From contig NZ_JYFE01000060.1 in the NCBI RefSeq assembly GCF_000877395.1, positions 248,001 through 312,000 of the forward strand: a stretch of 64,000 nucleotides of DNA. The letters are read 5' to 3'. Shown one piece after another: positions 31,498-48,111 of the stretch. The translations under genes were made by a program, and so were the position numbers. Under the pieces are notes generated by a model. The model did no database searches. It worked only from the letters and a program-made list of their open reading frames with translations, and was not told the origin of the DNA. The stretch is from Jannaschia aquimarina (GTDB lineage Bacteria; Pseudomonadota; Alphaproteobacteria; Rhodobacterales; Rhodobacteraceae). Position 1 is the first letter of the stretch, and each line of letters starts with the position of its first letter.

Positions 31498-33135
31498 TCA
31501 CGCCATCAAGAGATCGCTGGCACCGAGATCCGCGATATTCGCGTCTTCGATCATGATCGACCGACCATTGATCGAGAGTTCGATGTCGTCGCCGACCTGT
31601 TCCATGCTCTGGACCATGGCCGCCGGCGCGAGTTCCGCACCGATCCCTTCGAAAACGATGCTGTCCACGCCGACTTCGAAGTCCAGAATGACGTCGACGC
31701 CTTCATCTCCGAAGTCGAAGACGAACGTGTCAGCGCCCGCTCCGCCGCTCATGATGTCGTTCCCGCTCCCGCTGCGGATCACGTTGTCGCCGTCATCGCC
31801 TCGGATCGTGTCGTCGAAGGCCGTGCCGGTGACGTTCTCGAAGTTTACCGCCGTCGAGCCGTCCATCGTGCCCGCAGACAGGTCGACCTCGATGCCCGCC
31901 GCGGCCTGGCTCAGGTCCAGCGTGTCGATGCCGTCGCCGCCGTCCAGATCCAGCCGGATCTCGTCCAGCACCAGATCGACGATCACCGCGGTGTCGTCCC
32001 CGCCGCCGAAGTTCGTTTCCAGGTCTTCGGTCTTGCGGATGTCGAGCTGGAACAGCCCCCGCTCGGTCTGATCGTTCACTTCGATCCGGGCGAACTGGAC
32101 GCCTTTGTCCGTTACCGAAAACTCGGCCACGTCCTTGTTCTGGAGGTCGTCGTTGACGAGGTCGGTGTCGAAGTTGACCTGCACGCGGTCGTAGCCGCTG
32201 CCGCCGTTCATCTTGTCGGACCCGTCGCCGTTGTTCCAGACGAGCAGGTCGTTACCCGCCCCACCGGACATCTTGTCGTCGCCCTTGTTGCCGACGATGC
32301 GATCGTCGCCGCCGCGGCCGTTGAGACGGTCTTCGCCGTCCCCGCCCGATAGGACGTTGTCCTCGCGATCGCCGCGGATCCTGTCATCGAACGCGGTGCC
32401 GACGACGTTCTCGAAGTTCACCGCAGCCGAGTCGCCAAGCTGGCCCTTGCCCAGATCGACCTTGCCGACGGGCCCCGCGGCCTGGCTCAGGTCCAGCGTG
32501 TCGATGCCGTCGCCGCCGTCCAGGTCGAGTGTGATCTCGTCCAGCACCAGATCGACGATCACCGCGGTGTCGTCCCCGCCGCCGAAGTTCGTCTCCAGGT
32601 CTTCGGTCTTGCGGATGTCGAGCTGGAACAGCCCCCGCTCGGTCTGATCGTTCACTTCGATCCGGGCGAACTGGACGCCTTTGTCCGTTACCGAAAACTC
32701 GGCCACGTCCTTGTTCTGCAGGTCGTCGTTGACGAGGTCGGTGTCGAAGTTGACCTGCACGCGGTCGTAGCCGCTGCCGCCGTTCATCTTGTCGGACCCG
32801 TCGCCGTTGTTCCAGACCAGCAGGTCGTTCCCCGAGCCGCCGGACATCCGGTCGTTGCCCTTGTTACCGACGATGCGGTCGTCGCGCGACCCGCCACGCA
32901 GGTCGTCCTCGCCGTCGCCGCCTTCGACCGTGTCGTCGCCGGCACCACCGAAGATTGTGTCGTCGCCCAGGCCCCCAAGCAGCTTGTCGTGACCGGCAAG
33001 GCCGAAGATCTGGTCGTCGCCGCCCTGTCCGTCGATGTTGTCGGCGGCGAGTGTTCCGACGAGCAACTCCGCGGCGTCGGTGCCGCGGGACAGGGGGCCA
33101 CCTTCGAGGAGTTCTTTGGTGGTGATGATAGGCAT
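31498..33135 (-). CDS. RTX-type calcium-binding secreted protein with internal duplication
   Basis: A 545-residue acidic protein. Start at 33135 is preferred because GGAGATTCCA precedes it; upstream in-frame ATG (33147) and GTG (33180) lack a site. Residues about 45-115 carry nonapeptide-like repeats (GGDDQIFGLAGHDKLLGG, GGAGDDTVEGG). Two nearly identical modules of roughly 140 residues follow, each containing DLLVWNNGDGSDKMNGG, VQFARIEVNDQTERGLFQLD and GGDDTAVIVDLVLDEI, 192 residues apart. Between and after them are further GGxGxDxx turns. The C-terminus (GADTFVFDFGDEGVDVILDF, then a beta-rich tail) resembles type I secretion signals. No signal peptide. No type I exporter is encoded in the window. 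Confidence 0.88.
   Translation of the reverse strand: MPIITTKELLEGGPLSRGTDAAELLVGTLAADNIDGQGGDDQIFGLAGHDKLLGGLGDDTIFGGAGDDTVEGGDGEDDLRGGSRDDRIVGNKGNDRMSGGSGNDLLVWNNGDGSDKMNGGSGYDRVQVNFDTDLVNDDLQNKDVAEFSVTDKGVQFARIEVNDQTERGLFQLDIRKTEDLETNFGGGDDTAVIVDLVLDEITLDLDGGDGIDTLDLSQAAGPVGKVDLGKGQLGDSAAVNFENVVGTAFDDRIRGDREDNVLSGGDGEDRLNGRGGDDRIVGNKGDDKMSGGAGNDLLVWNNGDGSDKMNGGSGYDRVQVNFDTDLVNDDLQNKDVAEFSVTDKGVQFARIEVNDQTERGLFQLDIRKTEDLETNFGGGDDTAVIVDLVLDEIRLDLDGGDGIDTLDLSQAAAGIEVDLSAGTMDGSTAVNFENVTGTAFDDTIRGDDGDNVIRSGSGNDIMSGGAGADTFVFDFGDEGVDVILDFEVGVDSIVFEGIGAELAPAAMVQSMEQVGDDIELSINGRSIMIEDANIADLGASDLLMA
31901..32896. repeat. Direct in-frame duplication within the RTX gene, offset 576 bases
   Basis: The segment from 31901 to about 32240 recurs almost base for base at 32477 to about 32816, an exact 576-base (192-codon) offset; similarity continues at a lower level to about 32320 and 32896. 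The two copies differ by scattered, largely synonymous changes. The copies can be aligned by eye at many points, for example GATCACCGCGGTGTCGTCC at 31981 and 32557. Confidence 0.9.
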
Positions 33136-33495
33136 TGGAATCTCCATGCGTGAATGGGTTTCAATCAGGTTCCTCTTCACCGACCGGGCTGGCCCGATCC
33201 TTCGCTCGGTGCGCTGCCAGCCGGTGAGATACCCGTTGGTCGTCGCCGCCCCCGCTCCGGTTCAAAAAATTTTCGGAAAGGTTTTCCGACCCGGTTGATC
33301 CGGTCCCGGAGGTGGGATTTCAGCGAGCGGTCGGGTGGCGTGCATCGGCGGGCGCCGACCTTGCCGATCGCTCCGCTGCAGGGGTTTGCCCGACTGGCAG
33401 GCTGGGTTAACCTCCGTCCGGGGCCGACCAGCGCGGATCCGCCCCTTCCCCGCGATGGGTACTCCATCCGAGTGAGACGACGGCGAGTTCCGGCC
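33136..33495. promoter_or_regulatory. Divergent upstream region of the RTX gene and the ECF sigma operon
   Basis: No gene is supported here. Near its middle is an inverted repeat TCGGAAA (33273-33279) and TTTCCGA (33283-33289) preceded by an A/T-rich run (CAAAAAATTTT), the only such low-GC patch in the neighbourhood. It is a plausible promoter/operator zone for one or both divergent genes, possibly autoregulated by the ECF sigma factor, but no promoter element is certain. Confidence 0.4.
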
Positions 33496-34071
33496 ATGCG
33501 TGCTTCCGACGAGGCTCTTTCCAGACAAAAGCGCGCGAACGACGCGGCGCTTCTGTCGCGCGTGGCCGATGGGGACACAGCGGCGATGAAGGCGCTTTAC
33601 ATGGCCCATGCCGACGCGGTGGGCCGTTTCGTGCGCGCCCGCGTGCGCGACGACGCGGAGGCGGCCGATATCGTCCACGACACGATGATGAGCGTCTGGC
33701 GCGGCGCGGCGGGCTTCGAGGGCCGCTCCAGCGTCCTGTCGTGGATCCTGACGCTGGCCCGGAACCGGACAGTGGATCACATCCGCAAGCAGGCGCGTGT
33801 CACTCTCGGAGAACCGGACGACACGATCCCGGACGGAGACCCCGATCCCGAACAGGTGCTGGGCGCCGCCCAGGATGCCGAGCGCCTGCGCATCTGCGTC
33901 GAGAAGCTGCCGGAGCGCCAGCGCGCCGCGATCCACCTCGCCTTCTTCCAGGAGATGACCTGCGCCGAGATCGCGGAGGTCGAGGACGTCCCGGAAGGCA
34001 CGGTCAAAAGCCGCATCTACCACGCCAAGCAACTGCTGATGCGATGCCTGTCCCGGGGTGGGATCACATGA
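33496..34071 (+). CDS. ECF-family RNA polymerase sigma factor
   Basis: A 191-residue extracytoplasmic-function sigma factor. Region 2 spans about residues 30-100 (DAEAADIVHDTMMSVWRGA, then SWILTLARNRTVDHIRKQ). Region 4 spans about 135-185 (LPERQRAAIHLAFFQEMTCAEIAEV and GTVKSRIYHAKQLL), with its helix-turn-helix. An acidic linker with DDTIPDGDPDPEQ joins them. The ATG at 33496 fits the family start; weak GAG upstream. It is the first gene of a three-gene operon with a membrane anti-sigma factor and a lipoprotein subtilase. It would direct polymerase to a small regulon, probably including its own promoter. Confidence 0.9.
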   Translation: MRASDEALSRQKRANDAALLSRVADGDTAAMKALYMAHADAVGRFVRARVRDDAEAADIVHDTMMSVWRGAAGFEGRSSVLSWILTLARNRTVDHIRKQARVTLGEPDDTIPDGDPDPEQVLGAAQDAERLRICVEKLPERQRAAIHLAFFQEMTCAEIAEVEDVPEGTVKSRIYHAKQLLMRCLSRGGIT

Positions 34072-34129
34072 TTTTGAACCGGATTGCCGCTCGTTCGTCC
34101 AACGGACAGACGCCGCGATGGAGGTGGCC

Positions 34130-34705
34130 ATGGACCGGCCCGACGGACTGAACGAGGATGACCTGCTCGCCTATGCGCGCGGCGATGCCACACCGGACGA
34201 GGCGGCACGGATCGAAGCCGCCGCCGCCCGCGATCCTGCACTGAAGGCGGAACTGGCGTTGATGGCCGGCCTCAAGGGCGCGCTTGCCGCGTCCACCGAC
34301 CGGCCCGATGCCCGCGCCTTCGGTTGGAAACGCCTGGAGGCCGAGATCGGGCGGGCCCCCGCCGAGACCCAGGCCGCGCCGCGTGGGCGGATCTGGCAAT
34401 TGGCGGCCGTCTTCCTGGGTGCGATCGTCTTGGTGCAGGGCTCCTACATCGCCCTCGGCCCCGACGCGCCGCTTTATCGCACCGTGTCCGAAGAGACGGA
34501 TGGCGCGACCCTTGGCATCGCCTTCGCGCCCGGCGCGGCCGCCGCCGATATCGAAGCGCTCCTTCGGGAGACGGGCGCACGCATCGTGGATGGGCCAAGC
34601 GCCATCGGCCTCTATCGCATCGCCTTCGAGGACGAGGTCGCGCGGACGGAGGCGCGCGCCGCGCTCGAGGCGTCCGCGCTTGTCGAACTCGTGGCGGAGG
34701 AATGA
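34130..34705 (+). CDS. Membrane anti-sigma factor with propeptide-like periplasmic domain
   Basis: A 191-residue protein; the ATG at 34130 follows GGAGGTGGCC, while an ATG four codons earlier has no site. Residues 1-50 resemble cytoplasmic sigma-binding domains of the RskA/ZAS type (LLAYARGDATPDEAARIEA), but without zinc-binding His/Cys. One membrane helix follows at about 89-109 (QLAAVFLGAIVLVQGSYIAL). The exported part, 110-191, reads as beta-alpha-beta-beta-alpha-beta: LGIAFAPG, ADIEALLRETGARIV, IGLYRIAF, ARTEARAALEAS, LVELVAEE. That order matches the ferredoxin-like propeptides of subtilases, and the next gene is a subtilase. Inferred: cytoplasmic part holds the sigma factor, periplasmic part senses or contacts the protease. 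Confidence 0.75.
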   Translation: MDRPDGLNEDDLLAYARGDATPDEAARIEAAAARDPALKAELALMAGLKGALAASTDRPDARAFGWKRLEAEIGRAPAETQAAPRGRIWQLAAVFLGAIVLVQGSYIALGPDAPLYRTVSEETDGATLGIAFAPGAAAADIEALLRETGARIVDGPSAIGLYRIAFEDEVARTEARAALEASALVELVAEE

Positions 34706-34709
34706 TCCG

Positions 34710-35846
34710 ATGCGTCTGTTCGTGATCCTTTGCCTCGCGCTCGCCGCCTGCACGACGGCCGGGGGGCAGGCTCCGCGGGTCGCGGGACCGAACGGTCTGC
34801 CGCTGGCCGTCGTCGACGCCCGCGAGCTCATCGTGCTGACGGCCGAGGCGCCCGAAACCCTGATCTCGCGCGCCGAGGGGCTGGGCTACACACTGCGCGC
34901 CGTCCACCCCTTGCCCGAACTCGACGACACGCTCGTTTCGCTCCGCATCCCTGACGGTCGGTCCATCCCGGAGGCGATCGCCGAGATCGAGGCGGCCGTG
35001 CCCGGTGTCACGGCCGGTGCCAACCATGTCTACCGCCTGCAGGCCACTGACGGAGGGGGCGGCCGCGATTACGCCGCCGCGATGATCGGCTGGCCTCCGG
35101 ACGGATGCCGCGCCCGGGCCAGCGTGGGTATGATCGACGCCGCGATCACGCCCGGCCATCCGGCACTTCGGGCGGGGCGCATCGTCCAGCGGGCCTTCAC
35201 CGACGGTGGGACAGCACCTGCCACGTCTCACGGCGCCCTCGTGGCCGACCTCCTGATCGGAGAGGACCGGTTGCGCGACACGACCCTGCTCAGCGCCGCG
35301 GTCGTCGATCCCGGTCTCGACGGGGGTGGGGCGAGCGGGGTCGTCGCGATCCTGCGGGCGGTGGACTGGCTGTCCGCCGAGGGGGCGGACGTGGTCAATA
35401 TCAGCCTCGCCGGCCCTTACAACAAGCTGTTGGATCGCGCCCTGGGTCAGGCGGCGTCACAGGGCATGACGTTCGTCGCCGCAGTGGGCAATGCCGGGCC
35501 GAGGCGCCCGCCGCAATATCCGGCGGCCTTCCCCTTCGCCCTTGCCGTGACGGCCGTGGATCGTGACGGCGCGATCTATCGCAATGCCATCCGCGGCCCC
35601 CATGTCGACATCGCCGCACCGGGCGTCGACATCCTGGCCGCGCCCGGCGGCCGTCTGACCGTGTCGAGTGGAACATCGCTCGCCGCGCCCTTCGTCACCG
35701 CGACCGTCGCGTCCGATCCCGCTCTGGCCCGGCTCGCCCCCGCGCGCCTGCGGGCGGAGCTCGCCCGCCGCGCCCGCGATCTTGGCGAAGCGGGGCGGGA
35801 CGATATCTTCGGCGCGGGCCTGTTGCGCGTCGGCGCGGCCTGCTGA
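34710..35846 (+). CDS. Lipoprotein subtilisin-like serine protease (S8 family)
   Basis: A 378-residue exported protease. The N-terminus MRLFVILCLALAAC is a lipoprotein signal with Cys14 as acylation site. Residues about 38-110 look like a propeptide domain (ELIVLTAEAPETLISRAE, then LVSLRIPDG and PEAIAEIEAAVPGV). The catalytic set is complete: Asp143 (VGMIDAAITPGH), His174 (SHGALVAD), Asn261 of the oxyanion hole (AVGNAGP) and Ser323 (SSGTSLAAPF). The usual D-[ST]-G and HGT contexts are changed to DAA and HGA. It is the third gene of the operon, four bases after the anti-sigma stop, and should be anchored to a membrane facing the periplasm. A hairpin follows 58 bases downstream. Confidence 0.88.
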   Translation: MRLFVILCLALAACTTAGGQAPRVAGPNGLPLAVVDARELIVLTAEAPETLISRAEGLGYTLRAVHPLPELDDTLVSLRIPDGRSIPEAIAEIEAAVPGVTAGANHVYRLQATDGGGGRDYAAAMIGWPPDGCRARASVGMIDAAITPGHPALRAGRIVQRAFTDGGTAPATSHGALVADLLIGEDRLRDTTLLSAAVVDPGLDGGGASGVVAILRAVDWLSAEGADVVNISLAGPYNKLLDRALGQAASQGMTFVAAVGNAGPRRPPQYPAAFPFALAVTAVDRDGAIYRNAIRGPHVDIAAPGVDILAAPGGRLTVSSGTSLAAPFVTATVASDPALARLAPARLRAELARRARDLGEAGRDDIFGAGLLRVGAAC

Positions 35847-38530: not shown

Positions 38531-41500
38531 ATGCCGACAATTTCCGTCTCCCGTATTACCATCGACGAAGGTAATTTCTCCCGCCCGACCGTCGAGTTTC
38601 GTGTCACCCTGTCTGAGCCGACGCTCGACGCGGTCACGATGGATTACCGCGCGTTCGGCGATACGGCTTGGGACAGCGATTTCTTTGGCGGCTTCGCATC
38701 CAGCAGCAACTTCGGAACACTCACGATCCCGCCGGGCGACACGACCGGGATCATAACGCTCTCGATTCAGCCCGACAGTGTCGATGAGAGGGACGAGAAT
38801 TTCGGACTGCAGCTCGAAAACCTGTCGAGCAACGCCGAGTTCGACAATGGCGAGACCGTGTTGCGGACTGGTGGCATCATTCGCGATGACGACGGAACAG
38901 GGCAGAACCGGTCGATCTTCGTCTCCGACGTCGTTCTGGTCGAGGGGGACAGCGGCAGCAAGGAAGCGGTCTTCGACATCCGTCTTTCCCGCGAGGCGAC
39001 ATCGACCTTCAGCGTCAGCTACGCGACGAAGGATATCAGCGCCGTCGCGGGGCAGGATTATTCAGCGAGGTCCGGCACACTGACCTTCCGGCCGGGCGAC
39101 GACTTCAAGCAGGTCCGCGTTCCGGTCACATCGGACAGTGTCGCCGAGATCACCGAAAGCTTCGGCCTGACCCTTGGTGTGTCTTCATCCTTGAACATCG
39201 ACATCAGCGGCGCGTCCGGCGAGGCCTTCATCCGCGACGACGACAGCGGGTCGGGCCCGGTCGTTTCGGTCAAGCGCGCGGTGATCGAGGAAGACGATTT
39301 CTCGAACAAGCCTCTCGCATTCGAGATCAGCCTGTCAGAAGCTGCCATCGACGTCGTCACATTGGAATATCAGGTCTTTGCCGGGACCATCGACGAGTTG
39401 GACGTCGCCTCGCGGCTGCCATCGACGACCAATGCGGCGCAGGTGACCTTCGATCCGGGCGAAACGACCAAGGTCGTCTATATCCGAACGCGCGGCGACC
39501 TAGAGGAAGAACGCGACGAAGACCTGATCTTCCAGCTCGAGAACCTGTCTTCGAATGCCACGTTCGCTGGTGGCGAAGACATCATCCGGACGACCGGTGT
39601 AATTCAGGACGATGACGGGGTGGGACCTGACCTCTCCCTCTTCGTGTCTGACCCGATCCTCGTGGAAGGGGACAGCGGCACCAAGGAGGCGGTTTTCGAA
39701 ATCGTCCTCTCCCGGCCCGCGACCTCATCCTTCCGGGTCGATTACGAAACTCAGGACGGCAGCGCGGTTGCGGGGCAAGACTATACCCGCACCACGGGCA
39801 CGCTCAGCTTTCAGCCCGGCGAAGACATCAAGGTCGTTCGGGTTCCCGTCAATGGCGACACCCGGATCGAAACGTCGGAGACGTTCTCGCTTGTCCTGGA
39901 CGCTCCGAGTACGCCGAGCATCACGGTCGGCGGCGGTCTGGCCGGCGAGGCGACGATCCGGGACGACGATGCTGCCAACGGCCGACCCGTGATCTCGATT
40001 GCACCGGCCGTCGTGGACGAGTCGGACTTTTCGACACACACGCTGGCCTTCCAGGTCACGCTCTCCGAGCCGGCGCTGGACGAAGTGACGGTGGCGTACG
40101 AAGCCCTGCGGGGCACGTCCGAAGACGTGGATCTGATCAGCTTGTTCGGAGATCGGGGCACGGTCGGAACCGTCAGCTTCGCACCAGGGGAAACCAGCCA
40201 GACGATCCTCCTGAATGTTCGGGGCGACCGGGACGACGAGCGAGACGAGAGCATCGTGATGCAATTGTCGGAGCCGTCCTCGAATGCGGCGCTTGCCGGA
40301 GGCGGCCCGGTTCTGAGGGCAACCGGCGTCATCCGCGACAATGACGGTCTTGGTCCGAACCTCTCGCTGCTCGTCTCCGATCCGATCCTTCTGGAAGGTG
40401 ACGGCAGGACGCAGGAGGCGGTTTTCGAGCTTCGGCTTTCCCGGCCCGCGACCACGGACATCTCAGTCGATTACGCCACAAGCGACATCGAGGCGGTGGC
40501 GGGGCAGGACTACCGGTCGGTGACGGGCACCGCCTCTTTCGCACCGGGCGAAGAGGTCAAGTATGTCCGCGTCCCCGTAATCGGGGATCAGACCGTCGAG
40601 GCGTCCGAGAGCTTCGCGCTGACCGCGAGCCTCCGCTCCGGTCCGAGCATCGGAACCGAAGGGCTGAGTGGGACAGCGGTGATCCGCGACGATGATGGCG
40701 GAGCCGGGCCGGTCGTCACCATCCGGCCAGCCGTCGTGGACGAGGCCAGCGGCAGCCGTTCCCTTCTGTTTTCCGTCTCCCTCTCCGAAGCGACCACCGA
40801 TCCTGTCACCTTCGACTACAAGCCGATCGCCAATACCGCCCAGGAAGGCGATCTCGGATCGACGTTCGATACCCGTACCAACACATCCACGCTGACCTTC
40901 GAGCCCGGGGAGACCGAGAAGACGATCCGGATCCTGGCGCTGAGCGATCGGGTCGACGAGCGCGACGAGGGTCTGACGCTTCAGGCCTCGAACCTCAGCA
41001 CCAACGCGCGGTTCGCAGGCGGTGAAGACATCGTGCGGCTGAACGGCGTGATCCGGGATACAGACGGAACGGGGCTGGACCTGGCCGTCATCGTGTCCGA
41101 GCCGATCCTGCTTGAAGGTGACCGGGGCCGGGGCGAAGCCGTCTTCGAGCTGCGACTGTCGCGGCCCGCGACGGAAGACCTGCAGATCCGGTACGAAACG
41201 CGCGACATCACCGCGACCGCCGGAGAGGATTACGTCGCCGTGTCCGGAACCGCTACGTTCGCGCCGGGTGAAGAGGTCAAGAGCGTTCGCGTCCCGATCA
41301 TCGCAGACACGATCCCCGAATTGTCGGAATCGTTCGGTCTGGCCGTGACCTCCCCGAGCAGCCCGCGCCTCGACGACGCGGCGCGGGTCGGCGAGGCGCT
41401 GATCCGGGATGACGACGGCGCCACCAGCTCCGGATCCATCCTGACCGTGGAGGATGCGGTCACGATCGAGGGAAGGACCCTTCTCTATACGGTGTCGCTC

Positions 41501-43366
41501 TCGGAGCCGAGCCAGGACGTCGTCACGGCCGAGTACCGCCTCATCGCGGGAACGGCGACGGATCCGGATATCTCGGGAGGACTTGGCAGGAATACGGGAA
41601 CCGTTCAGATCGACCCGGGCGACACGACGGCCACGATCGCCATCCGGACGAACCGCGACTTCACCGATGAGCGGGACGAAAGCCTGTTTCTGCGACTGGA
41701 CAATATCGCGGGCGCTTCGTTCTCGGGCGGAACCGACAGTGTCACGACCGTCGGCTTCATCAGGGATACCGACGGCGTCGGTGCGAACCGCGCCGCCGCG
41801 GTCACGCCGACACTCGTCAGCGAAGCCGGAGCCGGCGCCACGGCCTACGAGATCAAGGTCAACCTGTCACAGCCTGCGACCGGCCGGACTACGTTCGAGG
41901 TCGAGGCACTGGACCAGACCGCGCGGATCGGACGCGACTACCGCCTGATCGACGAGACCGTGACGTTCGAGGTGGGCGACGACAGTGCCGGGATCCGGAT
42001 CGAGGTGCTGGGCGACGGACGTGCGAATGAGGGCACCGAGACCTTCGCCCTCTCGCTGACCCCCGCCCCCAACGCACCGTTCGTCGGCAACGTCCAGGAT
42101 GCGGTGATCTCGATAGCCGATGGCCCCTCCGTTCCCACGGACGCTCCGGACGACCGCGTCGGAACCGGCGGGAACGATGCCATCCGGCTTCTGGGCGGAA
42201 ACGACCGCTTCGACGGGTTGGCAGGCAACGACGACATCCGCGGCGATGGCGGTCGTGACACGTTGATCGGAGGCAGCGGCGAAGACACGCTGAGAGGCGG
42301 CTCCGGCGCCGACCTTCTGATCGGAGGGGTGGTGACGGACGTCTCGACCGGCGCGAAGGGGCAGGTCTTTCGGGTCTACCAGGCCACGCTGGACAGACTA
42401 CCGGACACGGGCGGCTTCGAGAACTGGACGGGGCGGATCGAGCGCGGAGAGCGCAGCCTGGTCGAGGTCATCTCGGGTTTTACCAACTCTCCTGAATTTC
42501 AGTCGACCTACGGCGCTTTGAACAACACGCAATTCGTCAATCTGCTCTACAACAATGTCCTCGGACGGGATGCGGATGCCGGTGGCCTGGCCCGCTGGAC
42601 CGGGGAGTTGGCCGCCGGCGCCTCGCGGGCGGAAGTCGTGCGCGGCTTTTCCGAAAGCCAGGAGTTCAAGAACAACACGAATGACGAGGCCAGCGCCTTC
42701 GCGGAAGCCCGCGACCAGGCGGAATTCATCGACGATGTCTTCCGCCTCTATCGCGCGACCCTCGATCGGTCACCGGACACGACGGGCCTGCTGAACTGGT
42801 CGGGCCGGTTGGCCGACGGCCGGTCCCTCGAAAGCGTGGCACAGGGGTTCGTGAACTCGCCGGAGTTCCAGCGCGACTATGGCGGTCAGGACGACAGAGG
42901 CTTCGTGACGCTCCTTTATAACAACGTTCTCGGCCGAGAACCTGACGACCGGGGGCTGGCGCGCTGGACCGGAGAGCTGGCCAATGGCGCGTCCCGTGCC
43001 GAAGTCGTGCTGGGGTTCTCCCAGAGCCCCGAATTCGTAAGGTCGACCTCCTCCGCGGTGGACCGATACATGCAGCGCCGGGACGGCGACGTACTCGAAG
43101 GTGGGCCCGGCAACGACGTGCTGGCAGGATCGCTCTTCGCGGACGAGTTCGTCTTCGACGCGGATCATGACGGGCGCGATCTCGTGCTCCAGCTCGACCC
43201 GTGGGACGCGCTGCGGTTCCGGGATTTCGGGTACGATTCCCGTGCCGACGTCCTGGCCGAGATGCGGCAGGCCGGGCCCGATCTCGTCTTTGCGGATCAG
43301 GGCGTGACCATCACCTTCGCCGATCGGACGTTGGCGGATCTGGACGACGTACAGTTCATCTTCTGA
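38531..43366 (+). CDS. Giant secreted Calx-beta / RTX / DUF4214 protein
   Basis: A 1611-residue acidic protein without a Sec signal. Residues 1-1200 hold ten Calx-beta-like repeats in five alternating pairs: type A starts near 1, 242, 485, 727 and 968; type B starts near 127, 366, 610, 850 and 1086. Type A contains IDERDE-like and NLSSNAxF segments and ends in GVIRDDDG; type B opens with SDPILVEGD. Residues about 1205-1268 are RTX nonapeptides (GGNDRFDGLAGNDDIRGDGG). Two DUF4214 domains follow (about 1276-1395 and 1396-1513; VFRVYQATLDRLPD, LLYNNVLGRDAD). The last 90 residues resemble type I secretion signals. Probably an exported, calcium-dependent adhesin or matrix protein; no exporter gene is in the window. 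Confidence 0.9.
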   Translation: MPTISVSRITIDEGNFSRPTVEFRVTLSEPTLDAVTMDYRAFGDTAWDSDFFGGFASSSNFGTLTIPPGDTTGIITLSIQPDSVDERDENFGLQLENLSSNAEFDNGETVLRTGGIIRDDDGTGQNRSIFVSDVVLVEGDSGSKEAVFDIRLSREATSTFSVSYATKDISAVAGQDYSARSGTLTFRPGDDFKQVRVPVTSDSVAEITESFGLTLGVSSSLNIDISGASGEAFIRDDDSGSGPVVSVKRAVIEEDDFSNKPLAFEISLSEAAIDVVTLEYQVFAGTIDELDVASRLPSTTNAAQVTFDPGETTKVVYIRTRGDLEEERDEDLIFQLENLSSNATFAGGEDIIRTTGVIQDDDGVGPDLSLFVSDPILVEGDSGTKEAVFEIVLSRPATSSFRVDYETQDGSAVAGQDYTRTTGTLSFQPGEDIKVVRVPVNGDTRIETSETFSLVLDAPSTPSITVGGGLAGEATIRDDDAANGRPVISIAPAVVDESDFSTHTLAFQVTLSEPALDEVTVAYEALRGTSEDVDLISLFGDRGTVGTVSFAPGETSQTILLNVRGDRDDERDESIVMQLSEPSSNAALAGGGPVLRATGVIRDNDGLGPNLSLLVSDPILLEGDGRTQEAVFELRLSRPATTDISVDYATSDIEAVAGQDYRSVTGTASFAPGEEVKYVRVPVIGDQTVEASESFALTASLRSGPSIGTEGLSGTAVIRDDDGGAGPVVTIRPAVVDEASGSRSLLFSVSLSEATTDPVTFDYKPIANTAQEGDLGSTFDTRTNTSTLTFEPGETEKTIRILALSDRVDERDEGLTLQASNLSTNARFAGGEDIVRLNGVIRDTDGTGLDLAVIVSEPILLEGDRGRGEAVFELRLSRPATEDLQIRYETRDITATAGEDYVAVSGTATFAPGEEVKSVRVPIIADTIPELSESFGLAVTSPSSPRLDDAARVGEALIRDDDGATSSGSILTVEDAVTIEGRTLLYTVSLSEPSQDVVTAEYRLIAGTATDPDISGGLGRNTGTVQIDPGDTTATIAIRTNRDFTDERDESLFLRLDNIAGASFSGGTDSVTTVGFIRDTDGVGANRAAAVTPTLVSEAGAGATAYEIKVNLSQPATGRTTFEVEALDQTARIGRDYRLIDETVTFEVGDDSAGIRIEVLGDGRANEGTETFALSLTPAPNAPFVGNVQDAVISIADGPSVPTDAPDDRVGTGGNDAIRLLGGNDRFDGLAGNDDIRGDGGRDTLIGGSGEDTLRGGSGADLLIGGVVTDVSTGAKGQVFRVYQATLDRLPDTGGFENWTGRIERGERSLVEVISGFTNSPEFQSTYGALNNTQFVNLLYNNVLGRDADAGGLARWTGELAAGASRAEVVRGFSESQEFKNNTNDEASAFAEARDQAEFIDDVFRLYRATLDRSPDTTGLLNWSGRLADGRSLESVAQGFVNSPEFQRDYGGQDDRGFVTLLYNNVLGREPDDRGLARWTGELANGASRAEVVLGFSQSPEFVRSTSSAVDRYMQRRDGDVLEGGPGNDVLAGSLFADEFVFDADHDGRDLVLQLDPWDALRFRDFGYDSRADVLAEMRQAGPDLVFADQGVTITFADRTLADLDDVQFIF

Positions 43367-43445
43367 CACCGACTTGCGGAACTATCGGGGAGCGCCGGGA
43401 GGCCCCGTGTCAGAGGACCGCGGGGCAATGATGCGCGTGCGGTTC

Positions 43446-43646
43446 ATCGAGCCAGGCAAGGCCAGGCAGAACGCCTTCGTGGAGAGGTTCAACGGCAAGT
43501 TCCGGGACGAGTGCCTGAACCTTCGCTGGTTCCGCTCGCTACGTCATGCGCGCGGGGAAATCGGACGAGGACGCTATCGCTACAGACCCAAGCGCCCTCG
43601 TTCGTCGCTCGGATACCCGTCCCCGACGGAGGTCCTGAAGAAAACC
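43446..43646 (+). pseudogene. IS3-family transposase (OrfB integrase core) C-terminal remnant
   Basis: The reading includes PGKARQNAFVERFNGKFRDE, which contains the last acidic residue of the DDE motif (the E of FVERFNG), and ends RPRSSLGYPSPTEVLKK, equivalent to the usual RPHSSLGYLTPAEF. The two earlier catalytic Asp residues, the N-terminal part and OrfA are missing, and the middle is altered (GEIGRGRYRYRPKRP). No flanking inverted repeats were found. It lies 80 bases after the giant secreted-protein gene and marks past insertion-sequence activity in the accessory region. Confidence 0.8.
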
Positions 43647-43763
43647 ACCGCGCCAGCGCTTGAGCCTTTTGCGGTCCCACGCTGCCGCTCGACCCTGAAA
43701 CCCGACCGGGACATTCCAGATCAAGCCGGCCCCGTGTTGGAGAAGGTCAGCAGGATGGACTGA

Positions 43764-46284: not shown

Positions 46285-47349
46285 TTAGGCCGCCCGGCTC
46301 TCCCGCGCGACCCGCTTCTTGCGCCTTCGGTCCGTGCGCCCCACAGGGCCGAGCAGCGCGGCAACCTCCTGCCCGCCGATGACGGGACGCGCCGTGCGCC
46401 TGTGGCCCCGAGCCAGTTCGAGGCGCAACGCCTCCGGTACAGTCATGCCATCCGGGTCGGCCGCACGGTCCCCCAGAAAGAGGCTTTCCACCCAGAGGCC
46501 GTTCGCACGGATGACGGCATGGCGATCGAGAAGGATGTGGAAAAAGCACATCCATCGGTCGAGCCGTCCGCTCCGCGCACGGCCGGCATCCATAAGATGG
46601 CGCGCCGCGGCGAGGACCTCCGGCTCTCCGAACAGGAGGGGACAGGTCGGTGCGTCGAGCAGAACCCGGTGCGACCGCGACAGGACGAGCGGCCCGCGAG
46701 GTGCATCGAAGGTCACCGCGGGCGCCCCTCCCGCCGCGAAGCGGCCTACCCACCTCACCGGAAGGGATCCGCCGTCCCGCGTCAGCACCTCGTGTCCGGG
46801 CCGCAGCCAGGCGATAGGCACCTCCCCCACAGGGGTCGCGATGCTGGCCGTCGGACCGAAACAGGGCACGCTTTGAAATTCGGAGTATTCCTGACGTGTG
46901 TCCGCACGACTCTCGTCGAAATCCTCCGTCTCCGGATCGTCCGCCTGGGCCCGGGTGACATTGTATGAGCCCAGAAACTGATATGTCGTATCCGGGTCGA
47001 GCGGCGCGGTCGTCATGTAGCCGACGACCTGGCCGGCGATTTCCACGCGGGTGATCTCTATCCGGGATCCGTCTGGTGCTTCGAAGACGTCGACCTTTTC
47101 CGCGTAGACCTGACCGGACGCGACCGGGTTGCCGTACATGTCCGTAACGACGGCATCCTGGGTGTCGTCATCACCCACCTCGTCGAAATCACCGTCGCCG
47201 TCGAGGTATCGCCCGGTACTCTGATCGTCGATGTCGATCCGGACCCGGTCGTCCTTGTGACTGTAGGTCGAGGCGAGCGTCAGTTCGCCCGTCGCGGAAT
47301 CGTAGGAAAACGCATCGATCGTGTAGGCATTGAAGGAATAGGTGGGCAT
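46285..47349 (-). CDS. Hint-domain protein (Hint_2 type) with N-terminal beta-rich region
   Basis: A 354-residue protein, ATG at 47349. Residues 1-155 are acidic and strand-rich, with a Ca-binding-like DGDGDFDEVGDDD stretch (about 50-62). A Hint (hedgehog/intein) domain starts at Cys163 in SVPCFGPTASIATPVG and includes EVLTRDGG, VRWVG and the conserved SRSHRVLL. Such proteins are abundant in Rhodobacteraceae and are usually linked to type I-secreted proteins. An intein C-terminal His-Asn is not obvious, so classical splicing is unlikely; N-S acyl shift and self-cleavage at Cys163 are possible. The C-terminus is basic (RRRKKR). It is divergent from nth. Confidence 0.85.
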   Translation of the reverse strand: MPTYSFNAYTIDAFSYDSATGELTLASTYSHKDDRVRIDIDDQSTGRYLDGDGDFDEVGDDDTQDAVVTDMYGNPVASGQVYAEKVDVFEAPDGSRIEITRVEIAGQVVGYMTTAPLDPDTTYQFLGSYNVTRAQADDPETEDFDESRADTRQEYSEFQSVPCFGPTASIATPVGEVPIAWLRPGHEVLTRDGGSLPVRWVGRFAAGGAPAVTFDAPRGPLVLSRSHRVLLDAPTCPLLFGEPEVLAAARHLMDAGRARSGRLDRWMCFFHILLDRHAVIRANGLWVESLFLGDRAADPDGMTVPEALRLELARGHRRTARPVIGGQEVAALLGPVGRTDRRRKKRVARESRAA

Positions 47350-47457
47350 CGTGGTTCCACGTCCGGCGCCTGCCTCGGCTAACAGCGGAACCTTTCCCGA
47401 ACATGAATCGCACGCCGCACGGCTTGCAGCCCTCGTCTCGCGCAGCCAGAAGAGCCC

Positions 47458-48111
47458 ATGGCCAAGCTCCCCGCCCCCCTGCCTTATGCCGCCCAACGCG
47501 CGATCTTCGAGAGGTTCCGCGAAGGCGAGCCCGAGCCGGTCGGCGAACTTGAACACGTGAACGCCTACACGCTCGTCGTTGCCGTCGCGCTCTCGGCTCA
47601 GGCGACGGATGCGGGCGTGAACAAGGCGACCCGCACCCTATTCGCCGTTGCCGACACGCCCGAGAAGATGCTGGAGCTGGGCCTCGAGGGCGTGACCGAG
47701 CACATCAAGTCCATCGGCCTCTATCGCAACAAGGCCAAGAACGTGATCGCGCTGAGCCGCATTCTGGTCGAGGAATATAACGGTCAGGTCCCGTCCTCTC
47801 GGGCCGCCCTGCAATCGCTGCCGGGGGTCGGGCGAAAGACCGCGAATGTCGTCCTGCAGATGTGGTTCGGACATCCCGCCCAGGCCGTCGACACGCATAT
47901 CTTCCGGGTGGGCAACCGCACGCGGATCGCGCCTGGCAAGGACGTCGATGCCGTCGAACGCGCGATCGAGGACAATGTCCCCGTCGAATACCAGAGCCAT
48001 TCCCATCACTGGCTGATCCTGCACGGCCGCTACATCTGCGTCGCCCGCAAGCCGAAATGTGGGGCCTGTCCGATCGCCGATCTCTGCCCCTACGAGGAGA
48101 AGACCGAATGA
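47458..48111 (+). CDS. nth: Endonuclease III (DNA glycosylase/AP lyase)
   Basis: A 217-residue base-excision repair enzyme removing oxidised pyrimidines. The helix-hairpin-helix LPGVGRKTANVV carries the catalytic Lys127, and Asp145 lies in AVDTHIFR. The C-terminal [4Fe-4S] cluster has the exact spacing C194-x6-C201-x2-C204-x5-C210. Length matches the family. Only a weak purine stretch precedes the ATG. The stop overlaps the next gene's ATG (ATGA), so the downstream small exported protein is co-translated. Confidence 0.95.
   Translation: MAKLPAPLPYAAQRAIFERFREGEPEPVGELEHVNAYTLVVAVALSAQATDAGVNKATRTLFAVADTPEKMLELGLEGVTEHIKSIGLYRNKAKNVIALSRILVEEYNGQVPSSRAALQSLPGVGRKTANVVLQMWFGHPAQAVDTHIFRVGNRTRIAPGKDVDAVERAIEDNVPVEYQSHSHHWLILHGRYICVARKPKCGACPIADLCPYEEKTE

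Follow-up and report, generated by a model that had tools for sequence, protein, structure and literature searches.

How does an anti-sigma factor at the inner membrane receive its signal when its gene lies between those of an ECF sigma factor and a subtilase? To our knowledge, signal sensing by most ECF anti-sigma factors is unknown, and we addressed this question at a locus within a 64,000-nucleotide stretch of Jannaschia aquimarina DNA (the window). A module that joins a conserved, catalytically intact protease to a prodomain-like sensor would provide a concrete and testable signal, namely free protease. If true, the enzyme's own inhibitory domain would have been reused as a sensor. The features of the locus are as follows.

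33496-34071, + strand: ECF sigma factor, 191 aa (Pfam and NCBIfam matches)
34118-34705, + strand: anti-sigma factor, 195 aa (adjoins the sigma gene, hydrophobic segment, weak family matches)
34472-34702, + strand: exported subtilase-prodomain-like domain, anti-sigma residues 119-195 (AlphaFold2, Foldseek, PF22148 matches, conservation)
34710-35846, + strand: S8 subtilase, predicted lipoprotein, 378 aa (Pfam S8, alignment, AlphaFold2)

The first-pass annotation had read these as three consecutive genes, for an ECF sigma factor, an anti-sigma-like protein with one membrane span and a subtilase of lipoprotein type whose catalytic triad is intact, and Pfam searches together with the sequence itself bore this out. 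The sigma gene product is short (191 aa) and matched Sigma70 regions 2 (Sigma70_r2; 8.2e-16, 58 bits versus a curated cut-off of 24) and 4 (r4_2; 2.4e-14, 53.1 versus 25.7 bits), as well as the NCBIfam sigma70-ECF superfamily (2.7e-28), identifying it as an ECF sigma factor. Read from its sequence, the anti-sigma factor has a cytoplasmic part (approximately residues 1-91), a single hydrophobic membrane segment (approximately residues 92-113) and an exported part C-terminal to it; alternative starts at an in-frame ATG (34130) or GTG (34058) are possible. The single span (by eye), the exported C-terminal domain and the adjoining ECF sigma gene correspond to the layout of Class I (zf-HC2 type) anti-sigma factors. 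The protein matched an NCBIfam anti-sigma family at 2.9e-6 but below the family cut-off (27.5 versus 100 bits), and Pfam zf-HC2 at E 0.081 (13.5 bits versus a cut-off of 22.2). At E-values up to 10, zf-HC2 and the fervidolysin prodomain family PF22148 were its sole Pfam matches, with no RseA family and no RsiV-type family among them. Since the genes are separated by gaps of 46 bp (sigma/anti-sigma) and 4 bp (anti-sigma/subtilase), their arrangement suggests an operon.

The third gene product matched Peptidase S8 (PF00082) at 3e-24 (86.3 bits versus a cut-off of 21.8), and its triad D143/H174/S323 was invariant across 45 aligned sequences, including that of the window. A lipobox recognised by eye (L-A-A-C, residues 11-14) would supply a lipid-anchor cysteine, Cys14, and is followed by a propeptide (approximately residues 36-108) and a catalytic domain (approximately residues 135-378). 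Because C133 and C378 are conserved in at least 90% of the alignment, they may form a disulphide, which suggests that the subtilase is periplasmic. AlphaFold2 modelled the protein with a mean pLDDT of 90.0 (mostly 93-98 in propeptide residues 39-104), and a comparison of the model with the PDB ranked pro-subtilisin E first and fervidolysin third. A search for a role in anti-phage defence gave only a generic subtilase match.

Conservation of the three-gene arrangement was examined with searches of increasing breadth. Within the window's order, the anti-sigma query matched 45/390 genomes and, outside the window's own genome, 49 places, 40 of which were fetched. Within ~4 kb, 38 of these 40 loci had an S8 gene, 39 a sigma gene and 37 all three genes. 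The two without S8 were L060, whose genome encodes another anti-sigma factor (L050) that does have an S8 neighbour, and L062, near a contig end. Nine named loci (L003-L011), tallied separately for possible overlap with other loci (L009 resembles L066), had S8 in eight cases, and the ninth (L010) is truncated where its contig stops. Relatives by name included Sulfitobacter, Tabrizicola, Fuscibacter and Aliiroseovarius, which indicate that the order searched is Rhodobacterales. A phylum-wide search with a profile restricted to the exported domain matched 37/398 genomes and gave 35 new loci, of which one (L143) was false and 30 of the other 34 contained S8. A class-wide search matched 18/385 genomes and gave 16 new loci; after L162 and L163 were dropped as false, S8 was present in 13/14 and sigma in 12/14. 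Overall, S8 lay within ~4 kb of the anti-sigma gene in 81/88 loci, a C14 gene took its place in four, and neither was found in three (L060, L062 and L155); nine of the 49 order places, mostly weak or secondary matches, fall outside the 88. Three of these nine were also examined. L181 is a class 1 locus (the window's anti-sigma type) with S8, and the L180 anti-sigma belongs to a second class described below. At L179, S8 directly follows a 77-aa open frame holding part of the sensor domain.

This linkage far exceeds chance. Twenty-eight module-bearing genomes had 74 S8 matches, or ~2.6 each (a few genes counted twice), so that by chance any one gene would have an S8 gene within 4 kb in ~0.5% of cases. 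Gene order was variable: the genes are co-directional in the window, and at L045, L046, L051 and L053 the sigma and anti-sigma genes are convergent and S8 is divergent, so S8 linkage outlasts gene rearrangement. Three-gene co-occurrence, which the first-pass annotation had named among its checks, was accordingly found to be conserved, also beyond the window's family. By the search counts, in which the genome that holds the window and a small number of weak or false matches are included, the module occurs in ~5 to 12% of sampled genomes. No reading frame in the order, phylum or class loci matched both the sensor and S8 profiles, and tblastn gave no match for plasmid copies of the anti-sigma gene.

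The exported domain was originally proposed to resemble a protease propeptide in its secondary structure. AlphaFold2 predicted a beta-alpha-beta-beta-alpha-beta fold for it (mean pLDDT 81.7, the start being of low confidence), and the element order was identical to that of residues 39-104 of the window subtilase's own propeptide. In a Foldseek search of the PDB, the prosubtilisin prodomain 3cnq_P ranked first at E 0.01, which is not significant, and no match was obtained at E up to 0.001. Among the 50 matches listed, seven were subtilase proforms, prodomains or the stand-alone inhibitor POIA1 (three of these assigned as prodomains by their length of 90-95 residues), and most were RRM-type or ribosomal proteins. 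Conservation in the sensor is highest in a hairpin loop, G-P-x-x-x-G (residues 159-164), in which G159, P160 and G164 were invariant in 49 sequences; the GP pair was present in 88/100 anti-sigma domains. The structural search therefore did not refute propeptide likeness: the proposed topology and the first Foldseek rank favour it, whereas the E-value of 0.01 and the many RRM proteins among the matches temper it.

Sequence comparisons pointed in the same direction, faintly. With E allowed up to 1, 16/49 sensor members matched PF22148 (the strongest at 6.5e-5) and 33/49 did not. Under a limit of 0.1, 10/50 members of a wider set, which overlaps the first by 19 rows, matched it too (the strongest at 4.3e-6). 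PF22148 was the sole Pfam family matched by more than one sensor member, every other family being matched by one. The window's exported domain scored 15.9 bits against PF22148, under the curated cut-off of 21. The family also recognises true propeptides here only patchily, since it matched 10/31 of the proteases' own propeptides in a distant set (E up to 0.1) and 1/45 order-set proteases scanned as whole proteins (E up to 1). A profile comparison of the sensor with the propeptides of its own proteases gave a probability of 13%, with one of 10 shuffles reaching 11.6%, and wider sets gave 6.8%. Pairwise, sensor and own propeptide had an average z of 0.73, exceeding 3 in 8/75 loci. Scores hardly rose above the controls: the mean across all pairs was 37.9, compared with 35.5 for shuffled sequences, 36.9 for reversed sequences and 37.0 for five catalytic segments. 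A sensor-profile sequence search of PDB chains gave nothing credible. The proteases' own propeptides likewise gave nothing credible, so this search is blind to such relationships. A recent copying of the neighbouring propeptide was also considered and rejected, as the own propeptide had a median rank of 33 across 75 loci. The claimed likeness to the protease's own propeptide is thus upheld in predicted element order and weak in profile and pairwise sequence comparison. Together, these data support a remote prodomain likeness for the exported domain, probably reflecting homology and not a recent duplication.

The sensor differs from true propeptides at its C-terminus. In the protease propeptides, Tyr or Phe occupies the position of residue 108 in 44/45 sequences, with Asn or His three places earlier in 43; by analogy with subtilisin, residue 108 would be the P1 residue. 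An N/H-x-x-Y/F-type motif was found in the last 14 residues of 0/100 anti-sigma domains. Any Tyr or Phe occurred in that stretch in 26/100, and an aromatic residue in the last five in 3/100. Most order-set sensor domains end a few residues past the last strand, and some distant ones extend 10-20 residues. The anti-sigma domains hence lack the C-terminal tail with an active-site aromatic residue that is characteristic of I9 inhibitors and, because the tail motif is absent, the domain, judged by its sequence, is no intact inhibitory propeptide. The idea of the sensor as a complete propeptide-type inhibitor was accordingly abandoned.

Variants of the module were found at both ends of the coupling. 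Four of the seven loci without S8 have another protease as neighbour: the phylum loci L120, L124, L126 and L129 each have a C14 gene of the caspase family in the vicinity (Pfam E-values across the four of 2.2e-39, 1.8e-32, 2.5e-32 and 1.6e-8), and each C14 protein has a signal-peptide-like start by eye. At L129, neither an anti-sigma domain in the sensor-bearing protein nor a sigma domain in its upstream neighbour was recognised. L124 (4014-4430) and L126 (3948-4451) also encode a second small protein with a single hydrophobic segment and a further copy of the sensor domain, its gene lying beside the C14 gene and one for a sulphate permease. In a search of the order with the protease as query, S8 relatives turned up in 73/390 genomes. 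Twenty of these loci were fetched, mostly from genomes without a clear class 1 anti-sigma gene, plus some second copies; a sigma gene lay near S8 in 19 and an anti-sigma was detected in 17. One of the 17 (L181) is class 1, and in the other 16 the exported sequence is of another kind, marked by a Cys-Arg ... Cys pattern that was recognised by eye:

L164-L169, L171-L178, L180 and L183: second-class loci, two-cysteine exported sequence (by eye)

One of six second-class sequences scanned weakly matched a 17-kDa antigen family (0.026). The ECF pairs linked to S8 genes thus carry exported sequences of at least two kinds, which strengthens protease coupling as a theme. Because related S8 genes pair with a different exported domain, the prodomain-like domain is not needed for such coupling. 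The three-gene coupling seen at first pass is conserved, but not exclusive to this sensor or, at the four C14 loci, to S8.

The reading that we prefer, to which we give slightly less than an even chance, is a protease-coupled ECF module in which the subtilase docks on a tailless prodomain-like sensor and triggers sigma release. At rest, the sigma factor would be kept at the inner membrane by the anti-sigma factor, whose tailless prodomain-fold domain would face the periplasm. The partner subtilase would leave the cytoplasm as a zymogen that carries its own propeptide (in the window, likely as a lipoprotein) and would recognise the sensor through the surface used for its own prodomain. As the sensor tail is missing, docking would leave the active site free. 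The docked protease might then make the site-1 cut in the anti-sigma factor itself or, by binding as a ligand, open it to attack by another protease, after which intramembrane proteolysis would free the sigma factor. The signal would be mature, unoccupied protease. The data show the gene order, its linkage across genomes, the catalytic residues, the predicted fold and the missing tail motif, and we infer docking, cleavage, sigma release and the direction of control.

An unlikely but serious alternative is that the subtilase is a mere output of the sigma factor, with the exported ferredoxin-like module dimerising or binding another ligand and its likeness to prodomains reflecting a common fold or old ancestry with no present contact. 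This would fit the preponderance of RRM-type proteins, which have the same general fold, among the Foldseek matches listed, the weak profile and pairwise links between sensor and propeptide, the replacement of S8 by C14 in four loci and the pairing of related S8 genes with another sensor domain. It sits less easily with a subtilase prodomain family being the sole recurrent Pfam match, and with a linkage that is kept despite rearrangement. Co-divergence also bears on it. Mirror-tree correlations were calculated for 40 loci, excluding L066, L068 and L073 as near-identical and loci missing one of the five parts, with permutations that do not remove shared descent. The anti-sigma cytoplasmic half and sigma, a yardstick for a known kind of contact, gave a partial r of 0.40 given S8. 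The exported domain and the S8 catalytic domain gave 0.28 (conditioned on sigma and the cytoplasmic half), compared with 0.16 for the cytoplasmic half and the S8 catalytic domain. The exported domain thus co-diverges with S8 somewhat more than the cytoplasmic half does, a difference that is suggestive only and stands against an output-only role. This link is not exclusive, because conditioning on S8 leaves the exported domain correlated with sigma as well (partial r 0.25). A promoter scan upstream of sigma with one ECF-type pattern gave one candidate in 48 loci, and six near relatives had no clear conserved block there. Output control is therefore not supported either by the one pattern tried.

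We consider it fairly improbable that the domain instead acts on the protease, as a membrane-tethered folding helper or a holder that captures mature subtilase after propeptide loss, with bound protease stabilising the anti-sigma factor in a negative feedback on protease production. The predicted prodomain-like fold and the operon-like spacing with the protease gene agree with this, a tailless domain would presumably not be cut at the usual place, and RsiV both senses and inhibits its enzyme (PMC5014341). However, the protease already has its own propeptide, and inhibition should be weak without the tail. Finally, chance neighbourhood combined with an over-read secondary-structure pattern has a negligible probability: the pattern alone, as first noticed, would be weak, and the observed linkage against its expectation refutes this explanation.

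Beyond the preferred docking model for this locus, it is possible, if somewhat doubtful, that protease-sensing sigma circuits are widespread, an anti-sigma factor having captured a tail-stripped subtilase prodomain that reports free mature periplasmic protease, and variants having swapped the protease (C14) or the sensor (the two-cysteine domain). If true, exported proteases would be a common input for a whole family of ECF systems.

Several known systems share parts of the proposed circuit, and two serve as precedents: RsiV for an anti-sigma factor that binds an enzyme, and Csx29/Csx30 for a protease of the locus that cuts the inhibitor of an ECF-like sigma factor. In the SigV-RsiV system of Bacillus, the outer domain of the anti-sigma factor recognises, binds and inhibits the enzyme that is sensed, and binding leads to sensitivity to site-1 cleavage and to sigma release (PMC5014341); there, lysozyme is the enzyme sensed and signal peptidase makes the cut, whereas the enzyme proposed here is the cell's own protease from the same gene group. 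The type III-E CRISPR Csx29-Csx30-CASP-sigma system likewise combines a locus-encoded protease, an inhibitor-of-sigma substrate and an ECF-like sigma factor, with cleavage relieving inhibition (PMC10028731). Its protease is of the CHAT type and is activated by target RNA through Cas7-11, and the parts of that report drawn on here describe neither a membrane anchor nor a prodomain-like sensor (PMC10028731). In SigE-RseA-DegS-RseP, sigma is freed from a membrane anti-sigma factor by sequential site-1 and site-2 proteolysis (PMC10202637); there the DegS PDZ domain senses outer-membrane proteins, whereas here the S8 gene is the usual neighbour. ECF54 loci have subtilase and CHAT genes nearby, and sigma control by locus-encoded proteases has been proposed for them (PMC8999054). 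ECF54 is described there as anti-sigma-free, whereas the present loci were found through their anti-sigma genes (PMC8999054). In predicted fold and recurrent family matches, the sensor resembles the fervidolysin prodomain (PF22148) and POIA1, a stand-alone I9-type protein, but it is located on an anti-sigma factor instead of in front of a protease and lacks the tail motif. No paper describing the three-gene module was found by title or abstract among the matches listed, in a search that did not cover the main ECF reclassification and does not establish absence from print.

In the window, the module is flanked by RTX-type proteins, encoded at 31498-33180 (RTX repeats by Pfam) and at 38531-43366 (1611 aa; by eye, repeats resembling those of RTX and Calx-beta type). 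Of 85 clustered loci, 13 (the window included) contained a family represented by an RTX protein, and such neighbours could be targets or substrates. By eye, the protein encoded at 31498-33180 has an internal duplication, in which a segment longer than 100 residues recurs with hardly any change. Further downstream, a short reading frame at 43407-43760 resembles the end of an IS3-type transposase and is probably a remnant, and 46285-47556 encodes a protein with a Hint-like (hedgehog/intein) segment, both recognised by eye.
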